Below are positions 49,714 through 56,443 of a stretch of DNA of 64,000 nt, piece by piece (within the stretch, counting starts at the first letter, position 1; every line of letters begins with the position of its first letter). The notes under the pieces were generated by a model. The model searched no databases, was not told the DNA's origin, and was given only the letters and a program-made list of their open reading frames with translations. The translations under genes were made by a program, and so were the position numbers. The stretch comes from Anaerolineae bacterium (GTDB lineage Bacteria > Chloroflexota > Anaerolineae > Promineifilales > Promineifilaceae), in the NCBI GenBank assembly GCA_023954475.1, contig JAMLHW010000005.1, positions 124,001 to 188,000 of the forward strand, written 5' to 3'.

Positions 49714-53148
<3,435 letters not shown>

Positions 53149-53284: not shown

Positions 53285-54190
53285 CTAGCCCTCTTCAAAA
53301 TAGTCCGAGTCAATGCGTTTCATGTCGTATGAGACAAATGTTGTGACACCAACTCCATAGTCGATCATGAGTTCGGCCAAGTTGTCACCGCTTATGAGCA
53401 CGATCTTTGAATCAATACGGGACGCAAAATCGCGAGCGCCCTGCGAAAAATCCGATGTCGTAATAAAGATTCCTTTTCGCGCTCGCCGGCCTTGCAGCGC
53501 ACCGGCAAACTTCTGAATTTCGGGACGGCTTACTGTAGTTTGCCAGCGCTTGGCCTGTATGTACACAACGTCAAGCCCTAAGCGATCTTCGTTGATGATT
53601 CCGTCAATTCCTTCGTCACCACTACCGCCAACTGCTTTGCCTGCTTCAGCTCGCGTACCACCATATCCCATTTTGACTATCAGATCGACGACCAGCTTTT
53701 CGAAGAAACCTGGAGAGCAAGTTTGGATTGTCTCAAGTATTTCCTGCGCCAAATCTCTGCGCATTTTTTGATAGGCAGACTCAATTGTTTCTTCCGGTGT
53801 TTGAGAATCGTCTATATCAGAAGTTGCTACTTGCTCATTTTTGGCGGTTGGCTTCTGAAATTCGCGAAACTCCTCGAATTGCCGCAAGAAAGCAGCGTCA
53901 ATTCTCAGCGGGTTTTGTTGAAGAATGGATTGACCTCGTTCGGTAATCGAATAATGGCCACGTCGTGTTGATTTTAGTAGGCCCGCCTTAACGAGATAGG
54001 TTCTGGCCCAGCCAACGCGATTGTTGAATGTTGCCTGGCGTCCACTTGGCAGCAGTTCTTTTCGCTCAACATTGGTCAAGTGGAACTTGTCACCGAGTAC
54101 GTCGTAGGTTTCACGCAACGAGTGCTCTTTGCCGTCTGCGGCAAGTTGGAGAAGGGGTAACATTAAGGACTGGTAATCTGGAATTGCCAT
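53285..54190 (-). CDS. mrr: Mrr-type restriction endonuclease
   Basis: A 301-residue type IV restriction enzyme of the Mrr family. The N-terminal winged-helix region (YQSLMLPLLQLAADGKEHSLRE) precedes a PD-(D/E)xK nuclease: FEKLVVDLIVKMGYGG, DEGIDGIINEDRLGLDVVYIQAKRW with the catalytic QAK, and GIFITTSDFSQGARDFA. Mrr cuts methylated DNA and no methyltransferase is nearby. It is a lone restriction gene with no TCGGCCGA copies in about 2 kb around it, although such gaps occur by chance. Confidence 0.93.
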   Translation of the reverse strand: MAIPDYQSLMLPLLQLAADGKEHSLRETYDVLGDKFHLTNVERKELLPSGRQATFNNRVGWARTYLVKAGLLKSTRRGHYSITERGQSILQQNPLRIDAAFLRQFEEFREFQKPTAKNEQVATSDIDDSQTPEETIESAYQKMRRDLAQEILETIQTCSPGFFEKLVVDLIVKMGYGGTRAEAGKAVGGSGDEGIDGIINEDRLGLDVVYIQAKRWQTTVSRPEIQKFAGALQGRRARKGIFITTSDFSQGARDFASRIDSKIVLISGDNLAELMIDYGVGVTTFVSYDMKRIDSDYFEEG

Positions 54191-54214: not shown

Positions 54215-54529
54215 TTAAGCTTCTTCGGCCGATTCCGGCTCGTAATCAGGGCTGATACGCAGCTTGTACAGGCCGCGAAAGTCCTCCGGATCGGCCGGTT
54301 GCCCTTTGCGCAAAATGACAATGTCGCCGCGCTGCGCCAGCTTTTTGGCGAAGAGGCGGATACGCTTGAGCAAACTTTGCCACTCTTCGGGATAGAGCTC
54401 CTGTGCGATGGCTTCCGGCTTGACGGCACCATCCGGCCCGGCTGTGTAGCAGCGTGCCAGGATGGTTTCATAGATCAGGTCGTCGCTGATTGTCTTTTTC
54501 TTTTTGGGTTGTTCTGTTTGATTTGTCAT
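54215..54529 (-). CDS. DUF3253 domain protein
   Basis: A 104-residue protein: KKTISDDLIYETILARC, AIAQELYPEEWQSLLKRIRLFAKKLAQRGDIVILRKGQPADPEDFRGLYKLRI. The DUF3253 pattern of a short winged-helix-like module is visible (WxxLxxxIRxxAxxLaxxGxIxIxxxGxxvDPxxxxGxyxLR). Function unknown. It lies upstream of mrr on the same strand with a 24-bp gap and may share its transcript. Confidence 0.8.
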   Translation of the reverse strand: MTNQTEQPKKKKTISDDLIYETILARCYTAGPDGAVKPEAIAQELYPEEWQSLLKRIRLFAKKLAQRGDIVILRKGQPADPEDFRGLYKLRISPDYEPESAEEA

Positions 54530-54562: not shown

Positions 54563-55231
54563 TTACGTGCGAATAGTGCGGGTTTCGAGGGCGGTGAGGC
54601 CGTCATCACGCTGCATTTTCAGGGTCCAGCCGTCGTCGCTGAGCCATAGGCGACGGGTTTGGTCGCCCCAGGCAATGGTGACGTGTCGGGCGTTATGCTG
54701 CGTGTGCCCGATGGTCACTGTTTGTCTGTCAACTGTGGTAATTTTCGGCCGAAAGGCCACCAGACCGAATAATTCTGCCAATTTCTCCTCATCGTACATA
54801 TTGAGTGTCCAGGCTGTTTCCACTTGCGGATACCGCGCCAACAACGCCAGGCCCACGCTCGACGGAAAGAAGAATACGCCATTTCCGGAAAATTCATCCT
54901 CATACCGTGAACCGTTGACCTCGCGGCTGTTGGTGGTACCGTCCGCTTCAAACAGGACATTGCCTTTGACGACGGTACCGTCGCCACCGTAAAAACGATA
55001 CGTCAGACGTTGCGGTGCGCCGTCACCATCGCTGACGAGATGGTAGAGATAGCTATTGCCCGATTCGGCCGAACGCGAATCTAAATCAACGCGCAGCACC
55101 GTAAATCCATCGGGCGCTTGCGTCAACCGCCACGCTTCGTTTGTTCCAACCGGCTCACCATTCAGCGAATAGCGCAACAATCCGGCGGCCAGCCGCTTCT
55201 CGTAAGGTTGTTCATGTACTAAAAAGCGCAT
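54563..55231 (-). CDS. Conserved hypothetical protein
   Basis: A 222-residue, mostly beta-strand, soluble protein without signal peptide or membrane segment. Regular alternation of hydrophobic residues (LTYRFYGGDGTVVKGNVLFEAD, RHVTIAWGDQTRRLWLSDDG) suggests a beta barrel or sandwich. No motif I can name. It lies between alaX and the DUF3253 gene on the same strand. A dyad with tandem 13-bp repeats sits before its start. Confidence 0.6.
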   Translation of the reverse strand: MRFLVHEQPYEKRLAAGLLRYSLNGEPVGTNEAWRLTQAPDGFTVLRVDLDSRSAESGNSYLYHLVSDGDGAPQRLTYRFYGGDGTVVKGNVLFEADGTTNSREVNGSRYEDEFSGNGVFFFPSSVGLALLARYPQVETAWTLNMYDEEKLAELFGLVAFRPKITTVDRQTVTIGHTQHNARHVTIAWGDQTRRLWLSDDGWTLKMQRDDGLTALETRTIRT

Positions 55232-55309: not shown

Positions 55310-56020
55310 TCAATCTTCTAGCTCCACATAAATCCGTTTGTTGATCCGCCCTTTGCTCTTGTAGTTCGGGATGCGGATTCGGCCGATTTCACGCGTATTT
55401 GCCACATGCGTGCCGCCGTCGGCCTGCAAATCCAGCCCAGCCAATTCGACTGTTCGTACTTCCGTGATGCCTTCCGGCAGCAAGTTGATCTTCGTCCGAA
55501 TCAGGTCAGGAATCTGAAACGCTTCTTCGCGAGGCAAGATGTTCACCGTGACCGGTCGTCCCGCCGTCACTTCCACATTGACTGCAGCCTCAATATCACC
55601 GACCAACTCTTTTTGCAGCGTCTCAAACTCAAAATCCATACGCCCGCTGAGCGGTTCCATATTGCCGCCGGTCACCTGCGCACCGTAATCGCGCCAGACG
55701 ACGCCGCACAACACGTGCATGGCTGTGTGTGTCCGCATCAGCTTGTAGCGCCGATCCCAGTCCAGCGTTCCCGTGACAGCAGTGCCGACGTCTGGCAAGT
55801 CGCCGGTGATGAAATGGGCCGGTTTGCCGGAAATTCGGCCGACTTTGGTGATTTGCCAGGTTGTCGTGCCGTCGCTCAGCGTGCCGAAGTCGCACGGCTG
55901 GCCGCCGCCGCCCGGATAAAATGCGGTGCGGTCAAGGATGACGCCGCCGTCCACGTGCGCAACGACGGTTGCTTCAAACTGTTTGACGTAAGCGTTGGTT
56001 GTGTAGAGTAATTCAGTCAT
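55310..56020 (-). CDS. Alanyl-tRNA editing protein AlaX-like
   Basis: A 236-residue stand-alone editing protein related to the editing domain of AlaRS. Metal-binding residues are visible as HTAMH near residue 90 and the later DGGTHVANTREIG; RTAFYPGGGGQPCDFG is the N-terminal family block. It removes mischarged amino acids such as serine from tRNA-Ala (or a related tRNA). Start at 56020 chosen (MTELLYTT). A T-box leader precedes it, so its synthesis is governed by uncharged tRNA. Confidence 0.9.
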   Translation of the reverse strand: MTELLYTTNAYVKQFEATVVAHVDGGVILDRTAFYPGGGGQPCDFGTLSDGTTTWQITKVGRISGKPAHFITGDLPDVGTAVTGTLDWDRRYKLMRTHTAMHVLCGVVWRDYGAQVTGGNMEPLSGRMDFEFETLQKELVGDIEAAVNVEVTAGRPVTVNILPREEAFQIPDLIRTKINLLPEGITEVRTVELAGLDLQADGGTHVANTREIGRIRIPNYKSKGRINKRIYVELED

Positions 56021-56096: not shown

Positions 56097-56407
56097 ATAA
56101 AAAACGCCTTCATCCCATCCTGGGACGAAGGCGCATTGTCTCCGCGGTACCACCCAAATTCCCAACGACGCTGTTGCCGTCGGACACTCAGTGCAAGAAC
56201 CATCATTCTCGCAATTCCCGTAACGTGGAATCAATCCGGCTCAGTCTACTCAAAACGGGTCGCTGAAACGTGACCGATTTCTTTCGGTGAGCAGCTCCGG
56301 AGGGATTTTCGGCCGAATCTGTTTGCCTGACTTCCACCACCTCAGGCTCGCTCATAACAGATAACCGGCGTACTCGTCTCCATCATCGCCGTTCACTATG
56401 CTGTTAA
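56097..56407 (-). ncRNA. T-box leader controlling the alaX gene
   Basis: On the minus strand the leader holds the invariant T-box sequence GGTGGTACCGCGG (56142-56155 region) and, just after, a terminator: a long GCCTTC/GAAGGC stem (about 56104-56134) followed by a T run (to 56097). Stem I features are visible upstream (GAGTACGC, GAGCGAGCC, GGTGGTGG). A run GAGCTGCTCACC near 56290-56295 places a GCT alanine codon where a specifier would be, consistent with the alanyl-tRNA editing gene downstream. Uncharged tRNA would favour the antiterminator. Confidence 0.85.
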
Positions 56408-56413
56408 GACGGA

Positions 56414-56443
56414 ATTATAGCGGTTTGGCTTTCCCTCTGTCAA
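56414..56443 (-). promoter_or_regulatory. Consensus sigma-70 promoter of the T-box/alaX transcript
   Basis: On the minus strand TTGACA (56443-56438) and TATAAT (56419-56414) both match the consensus fully, with an 18-bp spacer. It lies directly ahead of the T-box leader. The -35 hexamer overlaps the last codons of the upstream UbiB-type kinase gene. Confidence 0.85.

Follow-up and report, generated by a model that had tools for sequence, protein, structure and literature searches.

The DNA analysed here, a window of 64,000 nucleotides from an Anaerolineae bacterium, carries on its minus strand a T-box leader with its own promoter and terminator, followed by alaX, ORF222, a DUF3253 gene, mrr and ileS (Table 1). 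The five genes all lie on the minus strand and are separated by intergenic gaps of 24-136 nt.

Table 1. Features of the T-box leader and the genes behind it, with positions in the window.
Feature	Position	Strand	Description
Sigma-70-type promoter	56414..56443	-	TTGACA-18-TATAAT; 12/12 consensus positions
T-box leader RNA	56118..56395	-	Stem I, II, IIA/B, III, antiterminator; RF00230
Specifier AUC (Ile)	56304..56306	-	Stem I loop; Rfam alignment
T-box core GUGGUACCGCG	56143..56153	-	UGGU, predicted to pair with the tRNA ACCA end
Intrinsic terminator	56104..56134	-	14-pair stem and T-run; segment folding
alaX	55310..56020	-	AlaX-M type trans-editing protein, 236 aa, ADGGTH variant; NF040865, 282.9 bits
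ORF222	54563..55231	-	beta-rich protein; conserved between alaX and ileS in the family
DUF3253 gene	54215..54529	-	DUF3253 protein; PF11625, 61 bits
mrr	53285..54190	-	Mrr-type restriction endonuclease; PF04471/PF14338
ileS	49714..53148	-	IleRS, 1144 aa, GVHH signature motif; TIGR00392, 649.2 bits

The RF00230 covariance model matched the leader over its full length (model positions 1-219) with 106.4 bits and an E-value of 1.7e-22, the gathering score of this family being 93 bits. Elements similar to TTGACA...GGCATAAT were also seen upstream of homologous leaders. According to the model alignment and the segment fold, the sequence CGUCCC is the 3' arm of the antiterminator and is also contained in the 5' arm of the terminator, and the two structures are therefore mutually exclusive. 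When 26 homologous leaders were aligned, 42 of the 57 predicted pairs showed compensatory changes, and the same fold was found in all of them. The leader upstream of alaX is thus a genuine and complete transcriptional T-box. An earlier note on this DNA had described a full leader with consensus promoter, T-box and terminator at 56097-56443, and this description holds: the coordinates are correct for promoter through terminator, and alaX is the next gene on the same strand.

The same note had assigned a GCT specifier to the leader and had coupled alaX to uncharged tRNA-Ala. The specifier loop of Stem I, GAAAAUCC, reads GAA-A-AUC-C, with the isoleucine codon AUC in the standard frame (+0). The rule of TBDB takes positions 2-4, counted from the 3' end of the bulge, as the specifier (PMC7778990), and its application to the GAAAAUCC bulge also yielded AUC. 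Two GCU triplets are present at 56295-56290, but they belong to a conserved GGAGCU segment 3' of the specifier loop, and an alanine specifier was rejected because these triplets lie outside the loop. The search with the T-box model, which had been suggested as a means of confirming the specifier, therefore confirmed the leader but returned isoleucine as the amino acid. As a calibration, we read the specifiers of the genome's five remaining T-boxes in the same way and named the downstream genes from their translations. All five agreed (UCC with serS, UGG with trpB, CUC with leuS, and ACC with both thrS and asd), and none of the six T-boxes found in the genome has an alanine specifier.

The isoleucine specifier is invariant among the homologous leaders. 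AUC was found in all 42 readable alaX/ileS leaders from the genome itself and its relatives, the window included; 36 of these were read automatically, and six automatic misreadings were re-read by eye. The regions sampled in the relatives were those upstream of ileS and, if alaX was on another contig, also those upstream of alaX. Two leaders truncated by a contig end (L104, L117) and one T-box locus without alaX or ileS (L149) were left out of this count. In the named-genome set, AAUCC, AAUCA, CAUCC or UAUCC was read in 30 leaders (the five others were finder misreadings or truncations, and at least four duplicate loci of the first set), and the seven leaders upstream of alaX in the phylum-wide sample also had AUC. 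The idea of a GCU specifier, by which the T-box would read tRNA-Ala and tie the level of AlaX to uncharged tRNA-Ala, could appeal to the presence of GCU triplets in the leader and to the UGGU sequence, which would also suit a tRNA-Ala with discriminator A. Against this stand the position of these triplets, the invariant AUC and the lack of alanine specifiers in the T-boxes found in this genome, so that we regard it as extremely improbable. The earlier note itself had named a specifier for another amino acid as evidence against coupling to tRNA-Ala; as AUC encodes isoleucine, this coupling is refuted, and the tRNA assignment of the leader is corrected from alanine to isoleucine.

Among the tRNAs, tRNA-Ile(GAU) of three relatives has the discriminator A73, which fits the UGGU of the T-box. 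In relatives, its gene adjoins that of tRNA-Ala(TGC). Neither a tRNA scan nor pattern searches found a tRNA-Ile(GAU) gene in the draft assembly of the genome itself, where it may have been lost together with an unassembled rRNA operon. We consider it very probable that the leader acts as an antitermination T-box, responding to uncharged tRNA-Ile(GAU) and governing the genes alaX-ORF222-DUF3253-mrr-ileS. When Ile-tRNA is scarce, the anticodon of uncharged tRNA-Ile would pair with the AUC of Stem I, and its ACCA end with the UGGU of the T-box. These pairings would stabilise the antiterminator over the terminator, and the whole operon from alaX through ileS would then be transcribed together, which could give AlaX a role in isoleucine stress.

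The start of ileS is 2.2 kb beyond the stop codon of alaX, with three genes in between. Scanning of the interval from alaX to ileS revealed no promoter-like site on the minus strand and no strong terminator; the two weak minus-strand hairpins (5-6 pairs) are both within genes, and a 14-pair terminator follows past ileS at 49079-49048. As the genes share one strand, are separated by short gaps, and have no internal promoter-like site or strong terminator, alaX through ileS are likely cotranscribed on one continuous transcript. A promoter of a kind missed by the consensus scan may lie between alaX and ileS. The designation of AlaX as a "stand-alone" editing protein thus suits the protein, which has no synthetase catalytic domain; it does not suit the gene, which comes first in an apparent operon with ileS. 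The intervening genes mrr, DUF3253 and ORF222 are variably present in the operons of relatives. ORF222 has no match in Pfam or NCBIfam; homologues with 31-46% tblastn identity were found in nearly all operons of the family. Its predicted structure is confident (pLDDT 93) and beta-rich, with weak fold matches, for example to DUF1089.

Across genomes, the T-box tracks ileS and not alaX. In a set of 41 genomes encoding this AlaX (full-length identity of 60% or more), 35 have the two genes on one strand with alaX upstream of ileS, which corresponds to 35 of the 37 informative genomes, as contig ends cut the locus in four (G005, G010, G026, G050). In the remaining two (G039, G058), alaX and ileS are separated. 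In both, a T-box with AUC remains before ileS (L137/L267 and L126/L266), and no T-box was found before the separated alaX in the available 0.6 kb (L261) and 2.8 kb (L262) of upstream sequence. Genome and locus counts of this kind are not phylogenetically independent, and both break-ups point the same way. A T-box also precedes ileS in four genomes without alaX (G031, G046, G047, G054). The named-genome loci, 80 in number, included 36 with a T-box before alaX; ileS followed downstream in 33 of them, and the contig was cut in the other three. At the 22 named loci that had downstream room but no ileS, no T-box was detected (0/22), which also speaks against a leader that responds to tRNA-Ala on behalf of AlaX. 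We therefore rejected a T-box dedicated to alaX, as the copies of alaX away from ileS have no T-boxes. The pair alaX-ileS also occurs without a motif-detectable T-box, namely in G008 and G053, and 13 named loci contain alaX and ileS (mostly 3-4 kb downstream) without a T-box. Where the pair lacks the leader, no T-box was found between alaX and ileS.

The earlier note had seen in this leader a departure from the synthetase, transporter or biosynthetic genes that T-boxes usually precede. As the operon includes ileS and the T-box follows this gene, the leader is an isoleucine T-box on an ileS operon, and hence a leader of the ordinary kind before an unexpected gene pair. This raises the question of whether AlaX protects against errors at isoleucine shortage or is a passenger. 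In the latter case, the T-box would serve ileS, and alaX would be in front through operon history, without any link to isoleucine. We give this explanation an even chance. It agrees with the finding that the T-box goes with ileS when the two genes separate, and with the coming and going of mrr, DUF3253 and ORF222. In addition, AlaX-M recognises tRNA-Ala via G3:U70 (PMC11295145), and the tRNA-Ile of relatives has G3:C70 instead, so that an action of AlaX on tRNA-Ile would need a changed recognition. However, a mere passenger is less easily reconciled with alaX preceding ileS in nearly all informative genomes, in many families and with either type of IleRS, and with the occurrence of a T-box before alaX in the phylum-wide sample as well.

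The two types of IleRS are diverged. The T-box and alaX precede synthetases whose N-terminal parts show identities of either about 36-43% or 56-90%, and the pairing thus occurs with either IleRS. The score of the window IleRS in the TIGR00392 equivalog family exceeds the cut-off of 621.4 bits, and its translation has GVHH in place of the class I motif HXGH. In IleRS2, a GXHH motif gives mupirocin hyper-resistance (PMC10485003); the window enzyme resembles IleRS2 in this motif, and the tree of the cited study includes a few Chloroflexota IleRS2.

The AlaX protein matched the NF040865 (AlaXM) model over its full length, with a score just under the cut-off of 300 bits. Its AlphaFold2 model (pLDDT 89) gave the AlaRS editing domain and the AlaX-M structures 9iuw and 2e1b as best Foldseek matches, and also 3kew. 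As judged from this model, AlaX keeps the AlaX-M fold. The similarity to the AlaX-M enzymes of Pyrococcus horikoshii (2e1b) and P. furiosus (9iuw) comprises the fold (target-normalised TM-scores of 0.85-0.88), the HxxxH motif and the length, whereas the known enzymes differ in the CxxxH position, which is Asp198 here, in not being part of an ileS operon, and in that the protein described here stays below the NCBIfam cut-off. The residues H95xxxH99 and H202 are invariant, and Asp198 replaces the cysteine in 81/81 aligned sequences. The 20 loci of the phylum-wide sample, among them that of the genome itself, had ADGGTH throughout. In solved homologues, the aligned motif is CGGTH or a close variant, and the cysteine is kept in the AlaRS (CGGLH) and the AlaX-L (CGGTH) of the same genome. 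The cysteine of this motif serves as a metal ligand and is important for editing by AlaRS. The sequences thereby reveal an AlaX subfamily with a uniform exchange of a metal-ligand cysteine for aspartate. As copies of AlaX away from ileS share the ADGGTH motif, the aspartate is a trait of the subfamily and is not tied to the pairing with ileS.

These data bear on the alternative that AlaX is a functional partner in the isoleucine response, a deacylase repurposed by the exchange of cysteine for aspartate that would clear mischarged species when isoleucine is low. The conserved pairing of alaX with ileS under an isoleucine T-box would fit such a function, as would the uniform ADGGTH, set against the CGGxH kept by the AlaX-L and AlaRS of the same genome. 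The retained AlaX-M fold and the occurrence of the same motif away from ileS argue against it, and we regard a partnership of this kind as rather unlikely. The specific proposal for Chloroflexota that an ADGGTH AlaX with an altered metal site is co-induced with IleRS by uncharged tRNA-Ile, and removes mischarged species at isoleucine shortage, appears unlikely to us. With an isoleucine T-box on this conserved operon, cells would produce a tRNA-Ala editing factor in response to an isoleucine signal.

T-boxes upstream of ileS are well known from Staphylococcus aureus, from Firmicutes generally and, within Chloroflexota, from Dehalococcoides (PMC2494555). The leader described here resembles them in being an isoleucine-related T-box before ileS with terminator/antiterminator anatomy, but differs in that alaX comes first and up to three more genes precede ileS. 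The alaS T-boxes of Firmicutes (PMC2494555) likewise place T-box control around the charging or quality control of tRNA-Ala, but they are tied to alanine, whereas the present leader reads isoleucine. A catalogue of the T-box regulons of Chloroflexi exists (PMC3766115). The literature searched, which was mostly open-access, described neither an alaX-ileS operon nor an AlaX under T-box control, and the conserved alaX-ileS pairing has apparently not been described.

Inspection of the other T-boxes of the genome revealed a further arrangement. The leuS leader of the genome itself (CUC specifier; L004 1501-1885, G000:C20:525417-525801) contains a complete tRNA-Ala(GGC) gene, nested behind Stem I/II and ahead of the antiterminator, and a tRNA-Ala(CGC) gene is found just upstream. 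Nested tRNA-Ala genes were also present in the leuS leaders L309-L335, L364, L370, L373, L374 and L380-L382. Of the 23 leuS leaders in the family that have a T-box motif, 22 carry tRNA-Ala(GGC) 13-54 nt before the T-box core, and the leucine specifier of Stem I was recognised by pattern upstream of the nested tRNA in 17 of these 22. Other families of the class have such leaders too, as do two genomes from outside it; three further leuS leaders have the tRNA ahead of Stem I, and one yielded no tRNA. The alignment to the Rfam model runs through the nested tRNA and puts it at the position of Stem III. The leuS T-box leaders of the phylum often hold a nested tRNA-Ala gene, an arrangement that is probably more novel than the alaX leader; the literature searched, with the same scope as above, contained no precedent for T-boxes holding tRNA genes. 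Processing of the nested tRNA would sever the sensor from the switch. A promoter-like sequence, TTGACG-16-TACAAT, was read by eye just before the nested tRNA-Ala(GGC) at about 1693-1725 of L004. The nested gene might thus be transcribed from a promoter of its own within the leuS leader, and the two would then share the T-box terminator.

Elsewhere in the genome, about 20 tRNA genes are found on one strand within about 2.3 kb (G000:C1:145500-148000). This array includes second copies of tRNAs that the genome also encodes elsewhere, among them Phe(GAA), Trp(CCA) and Met(CAT), and resembles a mobile or phage-type array. The T-box before asd (L006, G000:C1:597955-598219) is weak, with 40.8 bits. 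As it carries the threonine specifier ACC and precedes asd, a T-box probably controls this biosynthetic gene as well.
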